Positions 371-25,018 of a stretch of DNA of 35,508 nt are shown in pieces. The stretch is taken from assembly GCA_019119165.1 (NCBI GenBank), contig DWXO01000069.1:1-35508 (forward strand), written 5' to 3'. The notes beneath the pieces were generated by a model. It was given only the letters and a program-made list of their open reading frames with translations, was not told the origin of the DNA and made no database searches. The stretch's first letter is position 1, and every line of letters starts with the position of its first letter. The position numbers were made by a program, and so were the translations under genes. The stretch is from Candidatus Flavonifractor intestinigallinarum. GTDB lineage: Bacteria; Bacillota; Clostridia; Oscillospirales; Oscillospiraceae.

Positions 371-1205
371 ATTCCTCCACGCCGTACCAGGCCAGCAGGG
401 ATTCCACCATGCCGTCCACAATCTTGGCCTGATACTCCGGGGTCTCCATGAGAGCGTCCTCCCGGGGATTGGTCATAAAGCCCATCTCAATGAACACGCA
501 GGGGATGGTGGAGAAGTTGAAGGCCGTCAGGTCGGAGCGCTGGACGGTGCCCAGGTTCTTGGCCCCCGTGTGCTCGCACACCGCCTCGATCATCAGCTCC
601 CCCAGCCGGGCGCTCTCCTCCACGATGGAGGGGGTGCCCAGCAGATCCCCGTAGGGCACCAGCACCATGGCCCCGTTATAGTCCGGGTCGGTCCAGCCGT
701 TGGCGTGGATGCTGATGTGTACGTCGGCCCCCGCCTCCTGGGCGATGCGGCACCGGTCGATGCCGCCCAGGGTGATCTCGGACACCTCCCGGGTCATCAC
801 CACCTGGGCTCCCAGCGCCTCCAGGGCGTCCCGGAGCTGGAGCCCCACCGCCAGGTTGAGCTGCTCCTCGGTCTGATTGGCTCCGGCGGTGCCGCCGCCG
901 AACAGGTATTTGGTCTCATCGGACAGGGGGGAGACCAGCTCCCGCTGGCCGGTGCCGGTCAGCGGGGTGACACAGTGGCCCGGGTCCACGCAGATCACCG
1001 CCCCCTCCAGCGGCAGCGGGGTGGGGGTGGGCTCCGGCGTGGGCGTGGGGGTGGGCTCCGGGGTTGGGGTGGGAGTAGGCTCAGCAGAGGGTGTCGCCAC
1101 AGGGGTGGGAGTGGAAGCCGGCTGTCCGCCCCCCGGTCCGGCACAGCCGGTACACAGCAGCGCCGCCAGCAGCGCCAGGCAGCACAGCCGTCTCACGCCC
1201 GCCAC
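369..1205 (-). CDS. N-acetylmuramoyl-L-alanine amidase (Amidase_3), lipoprotein
   Basis: A 278-residue protein predicted to cleave the amide bond between MurNAc and the stem peptide of peptidoglycan outside the cell. The N-terminus is a hydrophobic signal ending in LLCTGC, a lipobox with Cys rather than the usual Leu/Ala at -3, so lipidation at Cys21 is likely but not certain. Residues about 30-65 are a Thr-Pro/Glu-Pro repeat linker. The catalytic domain shows the Amidase_3 zinc ligands: VDPGH (His77), Glu in NQTEEQLN (about 113), SIHAN (His about 167), and the catalytic Glu in IEMGFMTN. The start is GTG at 1205, preceded by GGGAG inside the upstream gene and overlapping that gene's end by 13 bases, so translation is probably coupled. 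It is the last gene of a leftward set of three. Confidence 0.88.
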   Translation of the reverse strand: MAGVRRLCCLALLAALLCTGCAGPGGGQPASTPTPVATPSAEPTPTPTPEPTPTPTPEPTPTPLPLEGAVICVDPGHCVTPLTGTGQRELVSPLSDETKYLFGGGTAGANQTEEQLNLAVGLQLRDALEALGAQVVMTREVSEITLGGIDRCRIAQEAGADVHISIHANGWTDPDYNGAMVLVPYGDLLGTPSIVEESARLGELMIEAVCEHTGAKNLGTVQRSDLTAFNFSTIPCVFIEMGFMTNPREDALMETPEYQAKIVDGMVESLLAWYGVEE

Positions 1206-2266
1206 CCCATCTCCCGCTCGTAGGCCAGGATGGTCTCCAGGTTGGCCTGCTCGTAGGCATTGAACACGCTGGTGTCAAAGGTGGAGGCGTTGAGTCCCTC
1301 CACCGGCACATACCAGCTCTGGCGGTTAAAGTAGTCCTGAAGCTCCTGGCTGGAGAACTGATAGCCGTACCGGGCGTAGATCTCGTTGCGGATCAGGATT
1401 ACCTCTTCCTTGGTGAAGGGGGCCAGCTCGCTCTTGTCAATATACCGGCTGTCAGTGGGCAGCAGGTAGCCCTCGGTGGCCGTGGCTGGATCGTCGCCGT
1501 CCTGGTTGCCCAGCAGCTCCAGCCAGATGTCACCCCAGCCCGCCGCCGCGGCCTGGCTGTAGGTAAAGCCGTAGTAGGTCCACTCATGCAGTTTCTCGTC
1601 GTACCAGTAGGCCTCGTAAGAGGAGCCGCTGTCGGAGCTGCCGTTGACATAGAGGTTCATCCACTCCTGCAGCCTGCCCTGGTCCCAGGCCTCCCGGAAG
1701 GTGATGCCCTCAATGCGGGCGGTGAGCAGCTTGTCCATGTCCAGCTGAAGGGGATAGCCGCTCTGATTCTGGCCGGGGGTCTGGAGGGACTGGTCGTCCT
1801 CCTCCGGCGGCACGCTCTCAGAGGGCTGAGGCTCCAGCGTGGCGGAGGGGCTGGGAGTGGCCTGGGCCTCCGGCGTGGAGGAGGGCTTCAAGCTGGTCAT
1901 GGCCATCACCAGAGCCACCACCGCGCCGATCACCAGTACGCACAGCACCACCACCAGCGCGATGTAGCCGCCGCTCCGCCGGGGCTTTCTCTCCTCGGGC
2001 TGGGACTCCATGGGTTCCACCGGGTCCTGCCAGACAGGCTCCTCCCGCTTGGGCGGCTCAGGCGCTTTGGGCGGCTCCACGGGAGCCTGCCGGACGGGTT
2101 CCTCCCGCTTGGGCGGCTCGGGCGCTTTGGGCGGCTCCACGGGAGCCTGCCGGACAGGCTGCTCCGCCTGGGGCGGCTGGCTGTTGGACCGGCCGGTGGG
2201 CTTGCCGCACTTGTAGCAGAAGGAAGCGGTGTCCGCCAGCTTGGTCCCGCAGTATTTACAAAACAT
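1193..2266 (-). CDS. Zinc-ribbon membrane protein with extracellular YARHG domain
   Basis: 357 residues. The N-terminus carries a four-Cys zinc ribbon (Cys3, 6, 17, 20; CKYCG...CYKCG). A Pro/Glu/Lys-rich stretch at about 33-95 includes two copies of a 20-residue repeat. A single membrane helix lies at about 100-123 (IALVVVLCVLVIGAVVALVM), followed by a Ser/Pro/Thr-rich spacer. The C-terminal YARHG domain (about 275-350) is recognisable by LIRNEIYARYGYQF. YARHG domains are extracellular modules of Gram-positive proteins with a proposed cell-wall or ligand-binding role. The Lys/Arg-rich stretch before the helix predicts N-in/C-out topology. The start ATG has AAAGGAG upstream. It is 36 bp from the mutarotase gene upstream and overlaps the amidase downstream. 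It shares its architecture with the five-protein array at 19-25 kb. The precise function is unknown. Confidence 0.8.
   Translation of the reverse strand: MFCKYCGTKLADTASFCYKCGKPTGRSNSQPPQAEQPVRQAPVEPPKAPEPPKREEPVRQAPVEPPKAPEPPKREEPVWQDPVEPMESQPEERKPRRSGGYIALVVVLCVLVIGAVVALVMAMTSLKPSSTPEAQATPSPSATLEPQPSESVPPEEDDQSLQTPGQNQSGYPLQLDMDKLLTARIEGITFREAWDQGRLQEWMNLYVNGSSDSGSSYEAYWYDEKLHEWTYYGFTYSQAAAAGWGDIWLELLGNQDGDDPATATEGYLLPTDSRYIDKSELAPFTKEEVILIRNEIYARYGYQFSSQELQDYFNRQSWYVPVEGLNASTFDTSVFNAYEQANLETILAYEREMGWRA
2041..2160. repeat. 60-bp tandem repeat, two copies
   Basis: 2041-2100 and 2101-2160 differ at only three positions by eye. They lie in frame in the zinc-ribbon/YARHG gene and encode two copies of the Pro-rich segment APVEPPKAPEPPKREEPV. 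A weaker third partial copy lies at about 2010-2040. In-frame slippage of this repeat would change linker length without a frameshift. Confidence 0.9.
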
Positions 2267-15606: not shown

Positions 15607-17745
15607 TCAGTTCATGGGCACCACTCGGATGGCCACGGCCACGGGGGTGCTGCCGCTGTAGATATAGCCCACGGATACCATGGTCTGAATGTTGGGGAAG
15701 CTGCCCAGGTTGTATACGTCGTAGGTGTAGCCGTAGCTGATGCCGCCCTGGCTGTTGGAGAAGCGGAAGCCATGGCCCTCCAGCATGGTGATATACAGAT
15801 CCATGACGCTGTTCCGGTTGCCGGACCCGCCGGGGATGTTGCTCAGGTTATACACATACATGGTGGCGTCCCCGTCGGGGTCCTCCTGCATGGTGGGCAC
15901 GCCAAACATGGCGCCGAAATCGGGCACATTGGGATACTTGCTGTAGGTGGCGTCCAGATCCATGTCGCCGGTATTGCCGCCGGAGGAGGACTGCTGATCG
16001 TCCTCGTCACCGTCGTCCCAGTCGCTGCCGCCATTGTCCCAGCCGCCGCTGGCGCCGCCGCCCAGGGTGATGGTGTAGCTGCCCCGGTCGCCCAGGTCGT
16101 CAATGATGCGGAAGTCGCCTCCCACGGTGGTGACGGTGGAGGGGGTGGGACCGCTGTACTCTCTCACTGACACCTTGACGTAGCCGGTGGAGTGGGCCAG
16201 GACGGGGTCGGACATGACGGTGCTGCTGTAGCTTCTGCCGTCGATGACCACGGTATCGTTCTGGACCATTATGGTAAAGTCGGTCTTGTTGCGGACCAGC
16301 AGGTAGACCTCAATCTCGCTGCCGTCGTCGGCGTAGGGGTATTTCTGAGTCTTGCCGTAGTAGACCTCCACGCTGCTGTCGCTGTACAGCTTCTCCTTGC
16401 CGCTGACGGTGGGCACAGTGTTGTCGGTCTTGCCGGTATAGAGATCGGTGGCGTCAAATTGGGCGTAGATGGTATCGGACCCGCTGCCCACGCCGCCGGG
16501 AATGATCCGGAGCTGGCCGCCCACCGTCTGGACGCTGTTCAGATTCACCAGGGAGGAATCATAGTTCTGGATGGTAACCGTGACGGTGCCGGTGGAATTG
16601 GCGGACACGTCGTCGCTCATCACCAGGTCGTTGAAGGTATAGCCATTGAGGCTCACCGCGTCGGCCTGGACGGCGATGGTGCGCCCGGTCTTGTTGGTCA
16701 CGTCCAGATAGAGCTCAGCCTCGCTGGAATCGTACTTGCTCTTCTGAACCTTGGAGAACTTGATGCTGACGTTGGAATCCTCATAGAGGGGCTGGGCGGA
16801 CAGGGCCCGCTTGGACACGGTGACGGTACAGGTGGCCTTGACGCCGCCGGAGGAGGCGGCGGTGATGACGGCGGTGCCGGGGTTCCCGGCGGCCACGGTG
16901 CCGTCGGAGGCCACGGTGGCCACGTTCTTGTTGGAGCTGGTCCAGGTCAGGCTCTCGGTGGCGTTGGCGGGGGTGACGGAGGCGGTGAGCTTGCCGCTCT
17001 CCCCCTGCTGAAGGGCCAGGGTGGTCTTGTCCAGGGTGATGGCGGTAACGGTCACCGGCTTCTCCTCCAGGGTCACCTGGCGGCGCTGGTCGGGCAGGGC
17101 CATGCGGGAGACGATGGTGGCCACCGAGGCCCGGTCAATGGGGGTCTCGGGCAGGAAGGTGCCGTACTTGTCGCTGCCGGTGAGGATGCCCGCTCGGTAG
17201 AGGGTGTAGATATCCTCATAATTGGCCGACCCGGCGGCCAGATCGGGGATGTCCCCGTCCTCGATGGTGTTGATGGCCTTCAGCTCGTCGGCGGGCAGGG
17301 CCTTCACCAGGATACCGGCAAACTGACGGCGGGTGGCGTTGGCGTTGTAGTCGGTGAACTGGCCCTTGGTGATGATGCCGTTTTCCACGGCGTAATCCAC
17401 ATACACCTGGTACCAGGGGTCGCCCTGCACAAAGTCGGCCTTGCCGGTGTGGTAGATGCTGTGGAGCCGGCAGGCCAGAGCCAGGGTGGAGCTGATGGTC
17501 AGGTTCTGGGTGGGCGAGAAGGTGTTGCCGCTGCTCCCCTTCACCAGATCCAGCTCATAGGCCTTCTGCACGCTCTCGGCGTACCAGCTGGAGGCGGCCA
17601 CGTCGGTAAATTTCCCGGCGGGATAGTCGTTGACCTTTTTAAAATAATCCATGCTGTCCGCCGCCAGCGCCGCCCCGGGCAGCAGAGATACGGACAGCAC
17701 CAGCGTCAGCGCCCCGGCGCAGATCTTTTTCCCAATGCGTTTCAT
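15607..17745 (-). CDS. Secreted SLH-domain protein with Ig-like and duplicated C-terminal domains
   Basis: 712 residues. A signal peptide ends at AALAA (about residue 30). Three SLH-like repeats follow at about 45-220 (FTDVAASSWYAESVQKAYEL; WYQVYVDYAVENGIIT; YEDIYTLYRAGILTG), which normally bind pyruvylated secondary wall polymers. A bacterial Ig-like (Big_2) domain lies at about 235-315 (VTAITLDKTTLALQQGESGKL, TWTSSNKNVATV). Two related domains of about 110 residues follow, each starting LYEDS/LYSDS and ending TVGGxxRII, then an Asp/Gly/Ser-rich linker and a unique C-terminal domain. The ATG at 17745 is used because GGGAGGAG lies upstream; an ATG 18 bases earlier overlaps that site. It follows the XRE gene by 31 bases, so they form one leftward operon. 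Confidence 0.85.
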   Translation of the reverse strand: MKRIGKKICAGALTLVLSVSLLPGAALAADSMDYFKKVNDYPAGKFTDVAASSWYAESVQKAYELDLVKGSSGNTFSPTQNLTISSTLALACRLHSIYHTGKADFVQGDPWYQVYVDYAVENGIITKGQFTDYNANATRRQFAGILVKALPADELKAINTIEDGDIPDLAAGSANYEDIYTLYRAGILTGSDKYGTFLPETPIDRASVATIVSRMALPDQRRQVTLEEKPVTVTAITLDKTTLALQQGESGKLTASVTPANATESLTWTSSNKNVATVASDGTVAAGNPGTAVITAASSGGVKATCTVTVSKRALSAQPLYEDSNVSIKFSKVQKSKYDSSEAELYLDVTNKTGRTIAVQADAVSLNGYTFNDLVMSDDVSANSTGTVTVTIQNYDSSLVNLNSVQTVGGQLRIIPGGVGSGSDTIYAQFDATDLYTGKTDNTVPTVSGKEKLYSDSSVEVYYGKTQKYPYADDGSEIEVYLLVRNKTDFTIMVQNDTVVIDGRSYSSTVMSDPVLAHSTGYVKVSVREYSGPTPSTVTTVGGDFRIIDDLGDRGSYTITLGGGASGGWDNGGSDWDDGDEDDQQSSSGGNTGDMDLDATYSKYPNVPDFGAMFGVPTMQEDPDGDATMYVYNLSNIPGGSGNRNSVMDLYITMLEGHGFRFSNSQGGISYGYTYDVYNLGSFPNIQTMVSVGYIYSGSTPVAVAIRVVPMN

Positions 17746-17776
17746 ACAGTCAGCTCCTCCCATCTTACGGATGGCT

Positions 17777-18202
17777 TCAATACAGCGTCTTTTCGTTCTC
17801 CGAAAACAGCTTGTCGTTGATCTCCCCCAGCTCCATGTGATGTACGATGCCGAAGCTGATGATGGCGTCCCGCTTCAGCCGGGGATAAAGGGGGGCGTAG
17901 CTGGCCTGCTTGAGCAGCCGCTGGGCCTCCTCCAGGGTGGTCTCCAGCCCCACACACAGGCAGAGCAGCCGGTCCCGGGAGGGATTGCGCCGGCCGGCAA
18001 AGACCTGGTGGAGATAGACCTCGCTCATCCCCGCCTTCCGGGCCAGGGCCGCCTTGGAAAAGTCCTTTTTCTCATATAACTCCGCCAGCAGCTCCGCAAT
18101 GCTCTGGTTGGCAAAGAAGGGCTGATTGTCGTGGAGATAAGAGTCAATGTTGGCCTCGCTCATCAGATCATGGCTCAGATCGCCCGTGGTCTTATTTTCC
18201 AA
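17777..18202 (-). CDS. XRE-like helix-turn-helix regulator
   Basis: 141 residues. A cytosolic DNA-binding protein with one helix-turn-helix at about 45-95 (SIAELLAELYEKKDFSKAALARKAGMSEVYLHQVFAGRRNPSRDRLL), the standard Cro/CI pattern. The C-terminal 45 residues (LKRDAIISFGIVHH) form a helical extension seen in clostridial homologues near kinases, as far as I recall. The start is TTG at 18202, with GGGAG 8 bases upstream; a GTG nine bases earlier lies too close to that site. It is upstream of the SLH gene and divergent from the kinase operon, so it is the natural candidate to control both arms. TTGTA/TACAA dyads lie in the shared intergenic region. Confidence 0.8.
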   Translation of the reverse strand: MENKTTGDLSHDLMSEANIDSYLHDNQPFFANQSIAELLAELYEKKDFSKAALARKAGMSEVYLHQVFAGRRNPSRDRLLCLCVGLETTLEEAQRLLKQASYAPLYPRLKRDAIISFGIVHHMELGEINDKLFSENEKTLY

Positions 18203-18247
18203 TCCTATCACTCCCTTTACTTTCAAATGGAAATCGTTTATACTAAA

Positions 18248-18297
18248 TTTACAACAATTTGTACCTGGATACAATATGCCCACTGCATAGTGTACAA
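18248..18297. promoter_or_regulatory. Divergent control region: kinase-operon promoter and TTGTA/TACAA dyads
   Basis: A plausible plus-strand promoter is TTTACA (18248-18253), a 16-bp spacer and TACAAT (18270-18275). Four TTGTA/TACAA cores lie at 18250-18254, 18259-18263, 18270-18274 and 18293-18297. The first pair forms TACAA-N4-TTGTA and the middle pair TTGTA-N6-TACAA. They overlap the promoter and are candidate operators for the XRE protein (inference). Confidence 0.5.
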
Positions 18298-18309: not shown

Positions 18310-19017
18310 GTGATTTCTATTTATACCTGGCTGTCAAATGCGCTTCAGGAAGAGTATGAGCTGGTCCGGATCTTAAAGGAAAGCCCCCGGGGCAGCGTAC
18401 AGCTCATCCGGCACAACGCCACCGGCAGGCGTCTGATCCTGCGCCGTTTCACCGGCAATCCGGAAGTCTACCGAAAGCTGCTGGACTACACCTGTCCCAA
18501 CCTGCCCACCGTGTACGAGGTGGCGGTAGAGGGAAGCAAGGTCCTGACGCTGGAGGAATTTGTGGAGGGCGACACCATGGGCTTCCTGCTGCAGGAGGCC
18601 CTCTTTTCACCGGAGGAGACCCGGAAGATCGTCCGGCAGGTGTGCAAGGCCCTGTGGGTCCTCCACTCCATCGGCGCCGTCCACCGGGACGTGAAGCCGG
18701 AGAACATCATCCTCCGGGGGGATGAGGCGGTACTCATTGATTTTGACGCCGCTCGTTTACATAAGCCGGAGCACGACAATGACACCCAGATCCTGGGCAC
18801 CACCGGCTTTGCCGCCCCGGAGCAGTACGGCCTGTCCCAGTCGGACATCCGCACCGATATCTACTCCCTGGGGGTACTCATCAACGTGATGCTCACCGGC
18901 CAGCACCCCTCCAAAAAGCTGGCGGGGGGCAAAATGGGCCGCATTGTGGACCGCTGCACCCACGTCAACCCCCAGCACCGCTACCGCAATGTGCTGCGGC
19001 TGATGGAGGTCCTGTGA
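18310..19017 (+). CDS. Short Ser/Thr protein kinase-like protein
   Basis: 235 residues, a single cytosolic kinase-like domain with no membrane helix. Visible motifs are the catalytic loop VHRDVKPEN (Asp127, Lys129, Asn132), LIDFDAA in place of DFG (Asp144 kept), GTTGFAAPEQYG in the activation segment (APE), and DIYSLGVLINVMLTG. The glycine-rich loop is poorly formed (ESPRGSV), and the usual beta3 Lys appears as Arg in LILRRF (45-46). ATP binding may therefore be atypical; an alignment is needed to be sure. The C-lobe is short. The start is GTG at 18310, with AAGG upstream. The next gene starts 2 bases after its stop with GGAGGT inside the kinase gene, so it is coupled to the zinc-ribbon array. 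Confidence 0.82.
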   Translation: MISIYTWLSNALQEEYELVRILKESPRGSVQLIRHNATGRRLILRRFTGNPEVYRKLLDYTCPNLPTVYEVAVEGSKVLTLEEFVEGDTMGFLLQEALFSPEETRKIVRQVCKALWVLHSIGAVHRDVKPENIILRGDEAVLIDFDAARLHKPEHDNDTQILGTTGFAAPEQYGLSQSDIRTDIYSLGVLINVMLTGQHPSKKLAGGKMGRIVDRCTHVNPQHRYRNVLRLMEVL

Positions 19018-19018
19018 C

Positions 19019-20287
19019 ATGACCGGCGGGACCAGGCCCTGCCCTGTCTGCGGCGCCACCCTCCCCAGCGAGGCCTCCTTCTGCCCCCACTGTATGGAAC
19101 CCCTCCGCCCCCGGCGGGAGGCGGAGTTTCCCATCCGCCGGTGGGTGAAGCCTCTGCGGCGGGTCCTTTTTCTGCTGGTGCTGGCCGCCCTGGCGGCGGC
19201 TGTCTTTTTGCTGTATCAGGCCGTTACCCCCCACACATATGACGGCTGGGGGGAGCTGACCTACCACCTGAACGACAACGACTACCGTCTGGCGGTCACC
19301 TTCCGCAATGACGCTGTTCCGGAGCCGGAATACACCGTCCAGACCGTCCAGGACTGGAACTACGACCGAGCCGCCAAGCTCTTTGTGACCCATGTGGACA
19401 CCGGCGCCGACGCCGGGCAGGTCTTCCGCCAGCAGGTCGAGACTATCCAGGTCCAGGTGACCCAGGCCCAGGACAACCCCTCCCCCATCACCTGGCAGCA
19501 GCCCACCTATCAGGGCGATCCCGCCACCGAAGGGACGGCCCTCTCGCCGCTCTTTTTTGACGGTCAGAGCCGGGGGGAGGCGGAGATTCAGTGGACCCTC
19601 CGCATGAAGAACGGGGACACCCTCCTGCTGCGGCACAAGATGGTGATCGAGCCGGTGGATGTGGTGGACTACACCCCGGCGGACTGCGACATGGACACCA
19701 TCGAGGACCTCCAGGCCCTGGTGGATCAAATCCAGGCGGAGGTCCCCCTGCCCACGGTAGTACGGATCAATCTGCCCCCCGTCCACTACGAAGGGGGTCT
19801 CACCATCACCGGGCGTCCCATCAACCTGTACGGCACCGTGGATGACAAGAAGATGCGCACCGCTTTTCTGGGCCCGGTGACGGTGGACGTGGACCAGGGC
19901 CCCCAGTGCTTCATCGAGAACATCGACTTCCGGGGCAGCGGCTCGGGCACCGGCCTCACCGTGGAGGCCGACGGCCGGGTGCAGGACTGCCTCTTCACCG
20001 GCTGGGACACCGGCCTGCTGGTGGGCGGGGACGACTGGGCCGACCCCACCGGGTGCTGGTTCGAGGACAACGGCGTGGGCTTCCGCTTTGACAGCGTGGG
20101 AGACTACGTCAACGGCACCATGCTGGAGGGCAACACCTTCCGCAACAACGGCACCGCCGTGGAGCTGCTCCGGATGCCCGGGGCCAGGACCCTCTACTTC
20201 AACGGCTGCGTGTTCTCCGGCAACGGCACCGATCTCTCCAACCCTGCCAACCATCCCACCTATCTCTCCCGGGCCACCTTTGAATGA
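19019..20287 (+). CDS. Zinc-ribbon membrane protein with extracellular beta-helix-like domain (array gene 1)
   Basis: 422 residues. A cytosolic four-Cys zinc ribbon (CPVCG at 8-12, CPHC at 22-25), an Arg/Pro-rich stretch, one membrane helix at about 49-68, then an extracellular part of about 350 residues. The first extracellular half has a beta-rich segment with MKNGDTLLLRHK; the helix DMDTIEDLQALVDQIQAEVP then leads into LPPVHYEGGLTI and short Gly/Asn-rich turns (GSGTGL, CLFTGWDTG, GFRFDSVGDY, RNNGTAVEL) typical of a right-handed parallel beta-helix. No enzyme motif is recognised. Positive residues before the helix predict N-in/C-out topology. GGAGGT lies 8 bases before the ATG. It is first of five tandem genes behind the kinase. 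Confidence 0.8.
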   Translation: MTGGTRPCPVCGATLPSEASFCPHCMEPLRPRREAEFPIRRWVKPLRRVLFLLVLAALAAAVFLLYQAVTPHTYDGWGELTYHLNDNDYRLAVTFRNDAVPEPEYTVQTVQDWNYDRAAKLFVTHVDTGADAGQVFRQQVETIQVQVTQAQDNPSPITWQQPTYQGDPATEGTALSPLFFDGQSRGEAEIQWTLRMKNGDTLLLRHKMVIEPVDVVDYTPADCDMDTIEDLQALVDQIQAEVPLPTVVRINLPPVHYEGGLTITGRPINLYGTVDDKKMRTAFLGPVTVDVDQGPQCFIENIDFRGSGSGTGLTVEADGRVQDCLFTGWDTGLLVGGDDWADPTGCWFEDNGVGFRFDSVGDYVNGTMLEGNTFRNNGTAVELLRMPGARTLYFNGCVFSGNGTDLSNPANHPTYLSRATFE

Positions 20288-20301
20288 GGGAGGCGAGTGC
20301 T

Positions 20302-21558
20302 ATGAATCCACGCTGCCCTCACTGCGGCGCGCCTCTCCCGGCGGGGGCCTCCTTCTGTCCCCACTGCGCCCAAAACCTCCGCACCCGGCGAGAGATGGAC
20401 ACACCCGTCCGCCGGTGGCTGAAGCCTTTCAAGCAGACTCTTCTGCTGCTGGTGCTGGCCGCCCTTGGCTGGGCTGGCTGGCTGGTGTATGACGCCCTTG
20501 CCCCGAACGTATATGAGGCCTGGGGGGAGCTGACCTACAACCTGAACGGCAACGACTATCACCTGTTCCTCACCTGCCGCACCGACGCCGTCCCCGAGGC
20601 GGCCCACACCATGCAGGTGGAGGACGGCGGGGTCTACGACCGGGTCTCCCGGCTGTTCGTCACCCATGTGGACTCCGGCCAGGACGCGGGGCGGGCCTTT
20701 TCCAACCAGATGGATCAGTTCCAGACCCGGGTGATCCAGCCGCCGGACAGCCCCTCCCCGGTGGTCTGCTCCCTGCCCATAGATCCCAATGACCCCTATG
20801 ACGGCCTGGCCCTGACCACCCTGGATTTTACCGGCCGCAGTCAGGGGCCGGTGGAGGTGGAGTGGACCATCACCATGAAAAACGGAGACACCATCTTTCT
20901 CCGCCAGAAGCTCGACTTCCAGAGGGTGGACACCGCCCACTACTACCCGGAGGACTACGATATGGACACCATTGAGGACCTCCAGGCCCTGGTGGACCAG
21001 ATTCAGGCGGAGGTCCCCCTGTCCACGGTGGTACGGATTCACCTGCCGCCGGTGACCTACGAGGGCGGCCTCACCATCCACCGGCGGGGGATAAACCTGT
21101 CCGGCTCCACCGACGGGCAGGGCCGGCGCACCACCTTCTTAGGGCCGGTGGTGCTTGCGCCGGAGGAGGACCCGCTGTGTGATGTGGAACACATCGACTT
21201 TGTGGGGAACGGCACCGGCACCGGCCTCACCGTGGCCGCCCAGTACCGGGTGCTGGACTGCTCCTTCACCGGCTGGGACATCGGCCTGCTGGTGGGCGGG
21301 GAGGCCTGGGCCAACCCCAAAGACTGCCTCTTTACCGACAACGACATCGGCTTCCGCTTCGACAGCGGCGGAGATTACTGCAATTACACCGATTTTACCA
21401 ACAATACCTTCCGGAACAACACGGTGGCGGTGGACCTTTTGCGGGTGCCCGGCCTCAGAACCATCGACTTTACCGGCTGCCTGTTTGACGGCAACGTGGC
21501 TACCATCCTCAACCCCAACGCCCATGCCATTGATACCGGAGGCGCTACCTTTACATGA
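20302..21558 (+). CDS. Zinc-ribbon membrane protein with extracellular beta-helix-like domain (array gene 2)
   Basis: 418 residues and the closest relative of array gene 1. The zinc ribbon is at Cys5, 8, 19, 22 and the membrane helix at about 47-66. The extracellular part has MKNGDTIFLRQK, the near-identical helix DMDTIEDLQALVDQIQAEVP, LPPVTYEGGLTI, GTGTGL, CSFTGWDIGLLVGGE and GFRFDSGGDY. The matching DNA is also very similar, pointing to a fairly recent duplication. The ATG at 20302 follows GAGGGAGG 7 bases upstream; an ATG at 20284 overlapping the previous stop lacks a site of its own. No catalytic residues are evident. It may bind surface glycans or proteins (inference from fold only). Confidence 0.8.
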   Translation: MNPRCPHCGAPLPAGASFCPHCAQNLRTRREMDTPVRRWLKPFKQTLLLLVLAALGWAGWLVYDALAPNVYEAWGELTYNLNGNDYHLFLTCRTDAVPEAAHTMQVEDGGVYDRVSRLFVTHVDSGQDAGRAFSNQMDQFQTRVIQPPDSPSPVVCSLPIDPNDPYDGLALTTLDFTGRSQGPVEVEWTITMKNGDTIFLRQKLDFQRVDTAHYYPEDYDMDTIEDLQALVDQIQAEVPLSTVVRIHLPPVTYEGGLTIHRRGINLSGSTDGQGRRTTFLGPVVLAPEEDPLCDVEHIDFVGNGTGTGLTVAAQYRVLDCSFTGWDIGLLVGGEAWANPKDCLFTDNDIGFRFDSGGDYCNYTDFTNNTFRNNTVAVDLLRVPGLRTIDFTGCLFDGNVATILNPNAHAIDTGGATFT

Positions 21559-22493
21559 AAGAAATGATCCCTATGGAACACAAATGCCCTCACTGCGGTG
21601 CAGTTCTGCCGGAGGAGTCCTCCTTCTGCCCCCACTGCGCCCAGAGCCTCCGTACCCGGGAGGCGGCCCCCGTTCCCGCCCACCTGTGGCGGAAGGGCTT
21701 GAAATGGGTGCTGGCTCTGGCCATCGTGGCGGCGGCCGTCCTGGTGGGCTGGGCGCTGCTCCATGAGCCTCCCACCGGACTCCCCGCCGGGGAGACCACA
21801 CCGGTGGTCTTTCAGGAGGACGAGGACGGCATGGTGACGGTCACCCCCGAATATCTGGAGGAGTTCTTCCCCACCCTCACCTGCATTGACTTCGGCACCA
21901 CCATCAAGACCAGTGATAACATCGACGACTATCTGGTGGACAGCTTCCAGATGGCCACGCTGGTGTCCTCCCGTGGCGCCGAAAGCGCCGTGGGGGAGCG
22001 GGGAATGTACAGCGCCGGCAGCGACTCCAACAACCGGGTGGCTCTGCTGATCTTTGACGACAACACCCACCTGATGGGCTACTTCATCGGCTCCCCCACC
22101 AGCCTGGGAGACGGCAAGTGGCAGATGGACGTGGTGAACTGCGACTACGACTTCACCCCCCTCTACGAGGAGGAACTGGCCGCCTTTGAGGGCAGCTGGG
22201 AGGACGATTTCTCCACCTACATCCCGCCGGAGGAGATCCCCTCCTCCGGGGCGGTGTGGTTCCTGAAGGGCTACAACACCGGCCGGGGCCCGGTCCTTCG
22301 GGAGGACGACGCCCAGATCTACGCTCTGTGGCACACCCTCCACAGCCCGGAGCTGGAGCGCCAGTGCCGGGAGATTGAGCGGCTGGAGGAGTCCCTGCCC
22401 CGTGAGGACCGGTGGATGTGCTACCTGCTGTTGGATCAGGACTACAACCTGCTGGGCTACACCATACTGGATTACCAGGGGAACGGAGGATAA
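21555..22493 (+). CDS. Zinc-ribbon membrane protein with a different extracellular domain (array gene 3)
   Basis: 312 residues. The N-terminus matches the array (CPHCG at 11-15, CPHC at 25-28, membrane helix about 50-69). The extracellular part is shorter and not beta-helix-like: it has FFPTLTCIDFGTTIKTSDNIDDY, VALLIFDDNTHLMGYFIG and a C-terminal helical stretch LERQCREIERLEESLPREDRWMCYLLLDQD. I do not recognise the domain. The start is given as ATG at 21555, overlapping the previous stop (ATGA), with GGAGG 12 bases upstream; ATG at 21573 would align better with its paralogues, which begin MEHKCPHCG. The gene ends 3 bases before the next start. Confidence 0.78.
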   Translation: MKEMIPMEHKCPHCGAVLPEESSFCPHCAQSLRTREAAPVPAHLWRKGLKWVLALAIVAAAVLVGWALLHEPPTGLPAGETTPVVFQEDEDGMVTVTPEYLEEFFPTLTCIDFGTTIKTSDNIDDYLVDSFQMATLVSSRGAESAVGERGMYSAGSDSNNRVALLIFDDNTHLMGYFIGSPTSLGDGKWQMDVVNCDYDFTPLYEEELAAFEGSWEDDFSTYIPPEEIPSSGAVWFLKGYNTGRGPVLREDDAQIYALWHTLHSPELERQCREIERLEESLPREDRWMCYLLLDQDYNLLGYTILDYQGNGG

Positions 22494-22496
22494 GAG

Positions 22497-23732
22497 ATGG
22501 AGCACAAATGCCCCCACTGCGGCGCGGACCTGCCGGAAAACGCCGGTTTCTGCCCCCACTGTGCCACCGACCTCCACCCCCGGAAACAGGCCAAAACCGC
22601 CAACCCCCTGCTGAAAAAGCTGCTGCTTGGGCTGCTGGCTCTGGCGGTGCTGGCTGCCGCGGGGTTTGGACTGTGGCTGGCCTTCGCCCCTAAGACCTAC
22701 GACGGTTACGGGGAGGTCCGCTACGGGGACTATCAGCTCCTGCTCACCCAGAACGTGGACCGCTACATCCCCGTGCCGGAGATGGCCATTCCCGGGGAGC
22801 CGGAGGGCCAGTACCGAGTCCCCTCCCGGCTGTTTATCAACGACAGCACCGGCAGCGACGTCTCCGACGCCTTCCTGGCGGAGATGGAGGAGGTCAGCGC
22901 GGCCTTCATCGGCCAGGAGGACAGCCCCTCCCCCTTCCAATGCTCCCAGCCCGCCTACAACGAGGGGGTGCCTGAGTGCCCCCTCATCTCCCTCATCGAC
23001 TTCACCGGGGAGAGCGGCAAGGCGGAGCTGGTATGGACCTTCCAAATGAAAAACGGAGACACCATCTACCTCCGGCAGACCTATGAGGTCGTTCCCATCC
23101 CGGTGTACGACTACTACCCGGAGGACTACCCCATGGACACGGCGGAGAAGCTCCAGGCCCTCATCGACACCATTGGCGACCAAGTGAACGACCCGGTGGC
23201 GGTCATCAACCTCTACCTGCCCCCGGTGACCTACGAGGGCGGTATCACCATCCAGAGCCGGAGCATGAACCTGTACGGCTCCGCCGACGAAGCCGGAAAC
23301 CGCACCACCTTCACCGGCCCCGTCCAGGTGGTGGCCCCTCACGGCGAGATTGCCTATCTCCAGGACATCGATTTTGTGGGGAGGGGCAGCGGCACCGGTC
23401 TCTCCGGCTCCGGTTCCTTCCGGGCCACCAACTGCACCTTCACCGGCTGGGACACCGGGGTATACGCCTACGGCACCAGCTGGGTCAACGTCATCGGCTG
23501 CACCTTCCAAAGCAACGGCATCGGCTTCCACTTCGACAGCACGGGAGACTACGCCAACCACTCCATGTACAACGACAACCGCTTTTTTGGCAACGATGTG
23601 GCGGTGCGGCTGGACAACGTACCCACCGACATAACCCTCAACTTCCAGGGCTCCATCTTCCGGGCCAACGCCCAGAGCATCCTCAACCTCTGCGACCAAC
23701 CCCTGGATCTGTCCCAGGCCACCTTTGAGTAA
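22497..23732 (+). CDS. Zinc-ribbon membrane protein with extracellular beta-helix-like domain (array gene 4)
   Basis: 411 residues. The zinc ribbon is at Cys5, 8, 19, 22 (MEHKCPHCGADLPENAGFC), followed by a Lys-rich segment and a membrane helix at about 43-66. The extracellular part has the shared MKNGDTIYLRQ, PMDTAEKLQALIDTI helix, LPPVTYEGGITI, GSGTGLSGSGS, CTFTGWDTGVYAYG, GFHFDSTGDY and DVAVRLDNVPTDITLNF. It is nearest to array gene 5: the cytosolic ends are almost identical and both carry NVPTDITL. GGAGGA precedes the ATG. No enzymatic motif is recognised. Confidence 0.8.
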   Translation: MEHKCPHCGADLPENAGFCPHCATDLHPRKQAKTANPLLKKLLLGLLALAVLAAAGFGLWLAFAPKTYDGYGEVRYGDYQLLLTQNVDRYIPVPEMAIPGEPEGQYRVPSRLFINDSTGSDVSDAFLAEMEEVSAAFIGQEDSPSPFQCSQPAYNEGVPECPLISLIDFTGESGKAELVWTFQMKNGDTIYLRQTYEVVPIPVYDYYPEDYPMDTAEKLQALIDTIGDQVNDPVAVINLYLPPVTYEGGITIQSRSMNLYGSADEAGNRTTFTGPVQVVAPHGEIAYLQDIDFVGRGSGTGLSGSGSFRATNCTFTGWDTGVYAYGTSWVNVIGCTFQSNGIGFHFDSTGDYANHSMYNDNRFFGNDVAVRLDNVPTDITLNFQGSIFRANAQSILNLCDQPLDLSQATFE

Positions 23733-23746
23733 AGGAGAATCCCACC

Positions 23747-25018
23747 ATGGAACGCAAATGTCCCCACTGCGGCGCGGACCTGCCGGAAAACGCCGCCTTC
23801 TGTCCCCACTGTGCCAAGGATATCCACCCCCGGAAACAGGCAAAAACCGCCACCCCCCTGCTGAAAAAGCTGCTGGTGGGCCTGCTGATCCTGGCGGTGG
23901 CCGCCGCCATAGGCGGGGCAGTCTGGTACTGTAACCGGCCCTATGCGCCCCAGGAATTTGACGCGCTGGGCGAGGTGTACTACGAGAGCGGGGACAAGAC
24001 CTACCAGCTGCTGGTGGCCTGGCCCAACGACCGCTGCGCCCCCGCCCCCGACATCTACCAGCAGGGTTCCCCCGACGAGCAGTACCGCTGGCCCTCCCGG
24101 TGGTACGTCAACGACGCCGCCACCGGCGCCGACGCCTGGGCGGAATTTGAGCCCCTGGTGGAGCAGGTCACGGTAGAGGTGGTCCCCGATGAAAACGCCG
24201 CCGATCCCCTTACCGCCGGGGAGCCCAGCCACCAGGAGGACTACTCCCCCGATGCCGCCATGGTGTGCTCCCTGGACTTCACCGGCAATTCCGGGGAGTC
24301 CCAGATCGTCTGGACCGTCCAGATGAAGAACGGGGACGTGATCCGGGTCCGCCAGAACATCCACGTCACCGCCATCATCACCCACGAGTATCACTGGGAG
24401 GACACTCCCATGGACACCGTGGAGGACCTCCAGGCCCTGCTGGATCAGACCGCCCGGGACCTCGCCCCCTCCGATCTGGTGTACATCTACCTGCCGCCGG
24501 TGACCTATGAGGGGGATCTGACGCTGAGCCGCTCCTACGAGTTCTACGGCTGCACCGACCAGGGGGCGGACCGCACCACCCTCAAGGGTTCCATAACCAT
24601 GGACGGCAGCGCCAGCTTCTACTGGATCAACTACTTCTACGACATGGATTTCGTTGGGGACGGCACCAACACCGGCATCATCGCCCCCACCAAGGTCTGG
24701 GCCATCGGCTGCTCCTTTACCGGCTACAAGACCGGCTTCCAGTCCCAGGGGGAGGCCTGGATCAATGTGACCGAGTGTACCTTTATGGAGAACGAGGTGG
24801 GCCTCCACTTCAACGCCACCGGCCAGTCCGCCTCGGACAGCCGCTACCACGACAACCAGTTTATCAACAACGGCACCGCCGTGCTGATGGAGAACGTACC
24901 CACCGACATTACCCTGGACTTTGCAGGCACCGTGTTCTCCGGCAACGATACCGACGTGGACAACCAGTGTGACCATCCCATCGACCTGTCCAACGCCGTT
25001 TTTGATCCGGAAGGCTGA
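23747..25018 (+). CDS. Zinc-ribbon membrane protein with extracellular beta-helix-like domain (array gene 5)
   Basis: 423 residues. The zinc ribbon (Cys5, 8, 19, 22) and juxtamembrane region match array gene 4 almost residue for residue; the membrane helix is at about 43-62. The extracellular domain keeps MKNGDVIRVRQN, PMDTVEDLQALLDQT, LPPVTYEGDLTL, GTNTGI, CSFTGYKTGF, GLHFNATGQS and NNGTAVLMENVPTDITLDF but is otherwise more divergent, with an added aromatic stretch (SFYWINYFYDMDFVG). The ATG follows AAAGGAG. The operon ends directly after it with a 16-bp stem terminator. Confidence 0.8.
   Translation: MERKCPHCGADLPENAAFCPHCAKDIHPRKQAKTATPLLKKLLVGLLILAVAAAIGGAVWYCNRPYAPQEFDALGEVYYESGDKTYQLLVAWPNDRCAPAPDIYQQGSPDEQYRWPSRWYVNDAATGADAWAEFEPLVEQVTVEVVPDENAADPLTAGEPSHQEDYSPDAAMVCSLDFTGNSGESQIVWTVQMKNGDVIRVRQNIHVTAIITHEYHWEDTPMDTVEDLQALLDQTARDLAPSDLVYIYLPPVTYEGDLTLSRSYEFYGCTDQGADRTTLKGSITMDGSASFYWINYFYDMDFVGDGTNTGIIAPTKVWAIGCSFTGYKTGFQSQGEAWINVTECTFMENEVGLHFNATGQSASDSRYHDNQFINNGTAVLMENVPTDITLDFAGTVFSGNDTDVDNQCDHPIDLSNAVFDPEG

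Follow-up and report, generated by a model that had tools for sequence, protein, structure and literature searches.

What could a bacterium do with a small kinase gene that is followed, with hardly a base in between, by five genes for membrane proteins that all carry the same kind of zinc ribbon? This question is raised by a 35,508-nucleotide stretch of Candidatus Flavonifractor intestinigallinarum (Oscillospiraceae; assembly GCA_019119165.1, contig DWXO01000069.1), called the window here, which is one whole contig. The answer that we consider probable is a trans-envelope module, in which an XRE-type regulator encoded next to the kinase would run a regulon of surface proteins, with the kinase and the ribbon proteins, acting as receptors, as its input. 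What speaks for it is read from sequence: gene linkage, a conserved DNA box, promoter geometry, the co-occurrence of box and XRE gene, targets that are mostly exported and the architecture of the proteins, for one of which, Z4, there is a confident structural model. The XRE regulator, its proposed operator and the regulon lie beyond the original prediction, which dealt with the kinase and the ribbon proteins.

The array itself is real, and its coordinates had been given correctly. On the forward strand, the gene of a small atypical Ser/Thr protein kinase of 235 aa (18310..19017; PF00069, E=6.7e-28), whose GTG start at 18310 was confirmed and is preceded by CAGGGG, is followed by Z1 (19019..20287), Z2 (20284..21558, likelier start 20302), Z3 (21555..22493), Z4 (22497..23732) and, as the last member, Z5 (23747..25018), with successive gaps of 1, −4, −4, 3 and 14 bp. 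A CxxC..CxxC ribbon and one helix are found in all five array proteins. The layout is not a chance arrangement, since a kinase gene followed by a ribbon-protein gene recurs in other genomes. Upstream of the kinase and divergent from it stands the gene of an XRE/Cro-type regulator (17777..18202, reverse strand; HTH_31, 3.3e-9) with a TTG start, whose product has a KxT-DL motif at the N-terminal end and an NEKTL tail at the C-terminal end.

The genes of this locus tend to occur together. A homolog of Z2 is present in 25 of the 150 genomes of the family, and kinase and XRE genes were called 22 times each in 26 loci plus the window, the XRE gene being as a rule divergent from the kinase gene. In profile searches, XRE matches above 200 bits and kinase matches above 300 bits, limits chosen after the scores were known, fall in the identical 26 of the 150 genomes, which include 24 of the 25 Z2-bearing ones (the exception, G065, has a 26-bit match). 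Of 295 genomes of the order, 10 gave the XRE regulator (1e-40); 8 of these 10, and no others, also gave the ribbon/beta-helix protein (1e-20). In a scan that gave 80 XRE loci, the best of 231 relatives, the kinase is found in 72, in four of which it is cut by a contig end (L125, L133, L184, L192). A ribbon protein adjoins the kinase in 68 of 68 loci with an uncut kinase, with the order swapped in L171; for L167 and L182 the ribbon neighbours, missed by the automatic chain count, were taken from the locus listing. Kinase and ribbon proteins thus form one conserved module, to which a fusion described below (G140) also points, and this makes the link between them that had been proposed from the window likely. 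Neither a kinase-less scatter of homologues in most genomes nor ectodomains of a known unrelated family, the two outcomes named beforehand as contradicting such a link, was found.

The space between the divergent genes gives the first indication of how they may be controlled. It contains a 23-bp dyad, ACAATATGC-N5-GCATAGTGT (18271..18293, without strand), which we propose as the XRE box. With two mismatches at most, it is found in 58 of 62 XRE-kinase intergenic regions (those in which both genes lie within 250 bp of each other), a count made on the loci from which the consensus was derived, the sites found elsewhere being independent; shuffles of the same composition never came below four mismatches. 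By sequence, a kinase-operon promoter is placed on the forward strand (−35, TTTACT, 18216..18221; −10, TATACT, 18239..18244), and a −35/−10 pair precedes the kinase in 57 of the 62 regions, with a 17-bp spacer in 52, against a shuffled mean of 0.35 of 62. On the reverse strand, the XRE promoter would have its −10 (TAAATT, 18246..18251) abutting that of the kinase promoter and its −35 (TTGTAT, 18269..18274) overlapping the operator, which lies 26 bp beyond the kinase −10. Both promoters point towards each other and would probably be mutually exclusive. That the dyad might form an RNA hairpin in the leader of the kinase transcript was rejected because the same box stands upstream of the promoters of other genes, where it would not become part of their transcripts.

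Lambda cI-type regulators combine a cI helix-turn-helix (HTH) with a dyad at or next to the −35 (about −42), control of their own promoter and blocking of an opposing one. The XRE system would resemble them in these respects, and differs in that no peptidase domain was found in the XRE protein, in its linkage to a kinase and in its surface-protein regulon. By the position of its box, the XRE regulator would either activate surface genes in the manner of cI or repress them by covering the −35.

The same box leads to genes outside the cassettes. In the window's own genome there is one further dyad, with one mismatch, 115 bp before the gene of a second protein with SLH and Big_2 domains; the first, a surface protein with SLH (1.4e-15) and Ig-like Big_2 (1.7e-13) domains (Pfam; 15607..17763, reverse strand), lies 13 bp past the XRE gene on the same strand. 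With up to two mismatches, the 18-base dyad pattern occurs in 22 of the 26 XRE genomes, where its backward-read control gives one match, and in 2 of 26 XRE-less genomes, once each; these control genomes were chosen by us as having no XRE match at 1e-15. Matches to a composite pattern of dyad plus −10 number 75, cassettes accounting for 26 of these, and every XRE genome (26 of 26) has at least one. Since that figure includes the cassette sites, the fair comparison is the one outside cassettes, with 49 sites in 20 of 26 XRE genomes versus 3 sites in 3 of 26 XRE-less genomes.

These sites have a direction. Among 27 dyad-only sites outside cassettes, a −10 (at least 4 of 6 positions) stands at a spacer of 16–18 on the XRE side in 26 and on the other side in one, compared with 43 of 540 in shuffles, and the mean score peaks at exactly 17 bp; on the cassette side, the 58 regions with two mismatches at most and sufficient length were kept. 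Activation of the surface-gene targets seems somewhat more likely than repression, because the box keeps its register to the −35/−10 at the regulator's own promoter (58 of the 58 kept) and at 26 of the 27 others. An operator at a fixed distance, with a spacer of 17 from the overlapped −35 to the −10, would suit a cI-like class II activator; a repressor site overlapping the −35 would look alike.

Of the 27 sites, 19 are followed on the XRE side by signal-peptide-like open reading frames (ORFs; 4 sites have no ORF by the rule) and 3 on the other side (10 have none), which gives 19/23 versus 3/17 (Fisher 7e-5, the relatedness of the genomes being ignored; L270:6320 was excluded because it belongs to the cassette itself). 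For the composite sites, an exported or membrane product follows by rule at 30 of 49. SLH domains are present in 6 of 10 hand-picked targets (Pfam), and a single similarity group unites 16 of 37 target proteins with the SLH protein of the window, L276, L282, L289, L296 and L297 having been excluded from the grouping beforehand. Among the sites without an exported product by rule, three precede long ribbon proteins (L262, L275, L279), so that ribbon proteins may also be members of the regulon. On reading the loci, the gene behind the XRE gene was also often seen to be exported (about two dozen loci), and boxes elsewhere, like the XRE gene, are followed by a recurrent lipoprotein type with ...CGKSEAAKAVDDQIAAIGEVTLES... 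(L125, L126, L133, L151, L160, L191, L200, L261, L263).

We think that these elements could work together as follows. The XRE regulator, which we infer to bind the 23-bp dyad, would, relative to the predicted start sites, sit centred near −43, where it overlaps the −35 and keeps a distance of 17 bp from the −10, both at its own promoter and at those of SLH proteins, lipoproteins and other exported proteins. At the kinase-receptor operon the dyad would be downstream of the start site (about +20 to +42), a position from which the bound protein would block transcription as a roadblock. The ribbon proteins would be anchored in the membrane, their ribbons facing the cytosol and their ectodomains the exterior; the ribbons would bring or seat the small kinase at the membrane, the ectodomains, whose fold is common among glycan-handling proteins, would report on the wall or surface, and the kinase would then change the XRE regulator by phosphorylation or by binding. 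The contact between ribbon and kinase, the activity and substrate of the kinase and a wall polysaccharide as ligand are likewise suppositions. A bolder version, which we regard as speculative and rather doubtful as a whole, would be a new class of signalling, in which ordered, ribbon-anchored beta-helix subunits dock a kinase with a relocated G-loop (glycine-rich loop) lysine that flips a cI-like XRE switch, the face-to-face promoters with their abutting −10 boxes choosing between a receptor programme and an SLH/lipoprotein-coat programme.

The same genes could serve otherwise, with the ribbon/beta-helix proteins as the effectors, binding or scaffolding wall glycan outside the cell, the kinase tuning their activity and the XRE regulator doing no more than keep their expression in step with that of other surface proteins. 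TcaA of Staphylococcus, a protein linked to the cell envelope, has a similar layout of an N-terminal ribbon, one helix and outer domains. Among the weak Foldseek matches are beta-helices that handle glycans, the Sf6 tailspike for one, and the ribbon proteins found behind the box elsewhere (L262, L275, L279) would fit an effector role as well. PMC10611510 presents TcaA as a zinc-ribbon protein of the glycopeptide-responsive tcaRAB operon, in which, unlike here, it is accompanied by a MarR regulator and an MFS transporter. The NCBIfam TcaA model gives Z5 12.4 bits versus a cut-off of 550. Against effectors, the box is positioned at the kinase operon opposite to the way it is at surface genes, as would be expected of a control arm, and the strong kinase and XRE matches stay together in 26 genomes. 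We consider the effector alternative rather unlikely.

Returning to the module in which kinase and ribbon proteins feed the XRE regulator, a number of observations weigh against it. With looser limits the two sets of genomes split, the XRE regulator being found in 42 and the kinase in 32, and two kinase genomes (G127, G134) lie outside the XRE list. Eight of the 80 XRE loci have no kinase: L180 and L190 begin at a contig end, the upstream sequence of L134 is no longer than 0.8 kb (in its look-alike L129 the kinase is 3.2 kb away), and L146, L157, L162, L164 and L198 have at least 1.9 kb of upstream sequence without one, L157 and L162 being from one genome. Six of the 26 XRE genomes have no composite site outside a cassette (one of them, G089, has a dyad elsewhere), and the backward-read composite control matches three times in XRE genomes, and never in XRE-less ones. 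The signal-peptide rule is lax, being positive for 64 of 198 neighbouring genes, and one of the 30 positives, L276, is false, since on reading it is a ribonucleotide-reductase-like frame. The other 19 of the 49 composite sites lack an exported product by rule. Apart from the three with ribbon proteins, by reading six of these precede products that look exported or membrane-bound (L248, L259, L264, L265, L285, L291; the frame of L264 is short or broken), three precede cytosolic-looking ones (L258, L260, L289), and seven are chance-like or without a clear product (L282, L287, L290, L292, L294, L296, L297). The threonine in the tail of the XRE regulator is Ala in 7 of 86 sequences, four of which have the kinase in the locus, and it was rejected as an obligatory phosphosite because of this; it is Pro in another 4 of 86, with one row unreadable, and T6, S60 and S75 are at least equally constant in the XRE family, though S60 and S75 lie in or near the HTH. 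Lastly, the kinase may be inactive because its beta-3 lysine (of the VAIK motif) is Arg in 82 of 84 distinct cassette kinases, and His in the other two.

As for the other motifs, the kinase of the window retains HRD and has DFD in place of DFG, and in the kinase alignment A6, made of 44 of 48 clustered kinases and that of the window, none of the 45 rows departs from the catalytic Asp and Asn, from DFD or from APE; four were left out, including L160, which is on the same contig as L046. DFD is found in 21 of 22 locus kinases, and the motif exceptions outside A6 are L046 (HRDVEPEN), L050 (KPGN) and L055 (DLG). E52, present in 40 of the 45 rows, stands near the place expected for the alphaC Glu, a residue that the DYD kinases (PMC12599244) lack, but one residue off by our count, in a part where the alignment is unsure. 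A G-loop lysine is found in 82 of the 84 cassette kinases (Arg in two), and among divergent relatives, counted without a fragment of the split L197 kinase, the four with a beta-3 Lys lack the G-loop Lys and two of the four with a beta-3 Arg have it, a weak hint that the lysine may have moved from beta-3 to the G-loop.

Kinases with a displaced lysine or a beta-3 Arg have been described. WNK is active with a lysine from beta-2 (PMC4718504), and according to a 2025 review (PMC12599244) the DYD (pseudo)kinases of actinobacteria and firmicutes have a beta-3 Arg, while POMK relies on a lysine of the G-loop and has a DLD motif. The cassette kinases share with those the beta-3 Lys-to-Arg change, the kept HRD, an Asp at the third DFG position and, with POMK, the G-loop Lys, whereas their motif is DFD, without the Tyr of the DYD kinases, and the cassette kinase itself, G140 excepted, has no membrane helix, whereas the DYD kinases are membrane-associated (PMC12599244).

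No membrane helix was found in the window's kinase, and of the cassette kinases examined by the same helix rule a single one, that of G140 (L216), has such a helix, to which it is fused together with an outer region. Homology of that outer region to the ectodomains of the ribbon proteins was rejected, as there is no sequence match. By reading, L212 and L213 resemble this fusion; the helix rule flagged neither. The best matches of the kinase in the PDB, by profile, are PknB and StkP. The PASTA kinases (PknB/Stk1, PrkC) share the fold, but the cassette kinase has no PASTA domain (Pfam) and no helix, and scores 97 versus 450 bits (NCBIfam).

Kinase and XRE protein could also be seen as a defence or toxin-antitoxin-like pair, in the manner of HipBA or the PD-T4-6 kinase, with the membrane proteins as accessories. 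PADLOC PD-T4-6 models do match the kinase (best 1.4e-31), as does a PHROG kinase family (2.4e-33), and capH weakly matches the XRE protein (2e-5). These are generic kinase and HTH matches only, those of the kinase covering its general fold; PADLOC has no model that matches any of the five ribbon proteins, and no HipA family is among the Pfam or NCBIfam matches. With, moreover, a syntenic, position-keeping inheritance and a box that reaches surface-protein genes, we consider a defence system very improbable.

In the ribbon proteins, Zn_Ribbon_1 (PF13240) passes the Pfam cut-off in four of the five, Z1 having 22.4 versus 25 bits, and all four ribbon Cys, in two CxxC pairs, are kept in 75 of 76 alignment rows; none of the five attains the cut-off of an NCBIfam model. 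Because basic residues precede the helix, the ribbons presumably sit in the cytosol. Z1, Z2, Z4 and Z5 are assigned a beta-sandwich and a beta-helix behind ribbon and helix, and the ectodomain motifs quoted in the original prediction (MKNGDT, LQALxDQ, LPPVTYEGG, CxFTGWDTG, GFxFDSxGDY) are present.

The beta-helix that had been predicted for these four holds for Z4, with Pfam Beta_helix above cut-off (30.0 versus 25.9 bits) and an AlphaFold2 model, built on 76 sequences, with a mean pLDDT (predicted local distance difference test) of 93.3. Of the others, Z1 and Z2 are below the Pfam cut-off and Z5 is unlisted, Z4 being the only sandwich/beta-helix member that was modelled. The Z4 model, whose alignment comprised 72 of 74 clustered locus sequences and 4 from the window (the N-truncated L177 and L199 were left out), shows the ribbon, a helix (38–62), a beta-sandwich (about 66–205) and a right-handed beta-helix (about 216–411). 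Foldseek gave partial PDB matches only, the single one under E=0.001 being a sialyltransferase with a template modelling (TM) score of 0.19, with the Sf6 tailspike at a TM of about 0.3; a sequence-profile match to cadherin (E=0.014) was not trusted. The ectodomain of Z3 differs from the other four, gives a poorer model (pLDDT 80.9) and has no PDB match at E<=0.001.

How the paralogs have diverged bears on another alternative, close to the original prediction, by which constant ribbons talk to the kinase while ectodomains have diversified for different ligands, with no transcription factor taking part. Between paralogs of the same locus (31 pairs), the ribbon is the most conserved segment, with an identity of 0.62 against 0.38 for the sandwich and 0.45 for the beta-helix, and tandem copies do reach five. 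The predicted contrast between constant ribbons and divergent ectodomains is hence found in part, the lowest identity being that of the juxtamembrane stretch and helix (0.32).

In a ribbon-free tree of 105 sequences, from which nine loci judged near-copies or cut were left out, copies largely cluster by array position, with 3, 3 and 2 label changes for first, mid and last copies, whereas shuffled labels, a test of clustering only, give about 15 and in 0 of 500 cases as few as observed. Z4 of the window groups with the mid copies and Z5 with the last copies of other species; the exceptions are the third copy of L159 and the first copies of L172 and L176. The set therefore looks old and ordered, more like fixed subunits than fast-diversifying sensors, which goes against fast diversification of the ectodomains for different ligands. 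The number of ribbon copies per kinase locus, a lower bound owing to contig ends, is one in 37 of the 72, two in 12, three in 1, four in 11 and five in 4. With single copies so frequent and the XRE gene accompanying the kinase, we find this alternative improbable. The juxtamembrane phosphosites that had been suggested were rejected, as the Ser/Thr share is at most 0.28 in any column between residue 26 of Z4 and the helix; within the ribbon, columns 17 and 25 have 0.66 and 0.45.

Some loci show further variations. Two XRE genes are interleaved with ribbon proteins and kinase in L172, L174, L176 and L181, and two are also present in L170 and L196. Downstream of the XRE gene and in the same orientation there is often another, larger kinase, which has a CYNCF..CPxCGFDL ribbon (L144, L146, L150, L180, L185, L186, L188), and the neighbourhood of L041 also has a trypsin-like gene and, by reading, a phosphatase-like one. 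In the divergent relatives L214 (8209-9297) and L215 (6662-7873), a helix-bearing kinase and a different ribbon protein (TKLCKHCKT..) stand near an XRE-like gene; the kinase-ribbon-XRE pairing there is a wider theme. Distant from the array, the window encodes one more protein with an N-terminal four-Cys ribbon (MFCKYCGTKL..., 1193-2266, reverse strand).

The protein families are known by fold, the Z3 ectodomain excepted. None of the papers listed by a literature search, with subscription journals mostly outside its reach, describes their combination, the box or the regulon. To our knowledge, little is known about how gut Oscillospiraceae choose the surface proteins that they display. For this issue the module offers a testable regulator, a set of receptors, an unusual kinase and a short DNA box that lists candidate targets in a genome. 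It also provides a natural test case for bacterial kinases that have Arg instead of the VAIK Lys, which may be active like WNK and POMK or able only to bind. Altogether, the module suggests an undescribed way by which these bacteria sense the outside and adjust their cell surface.

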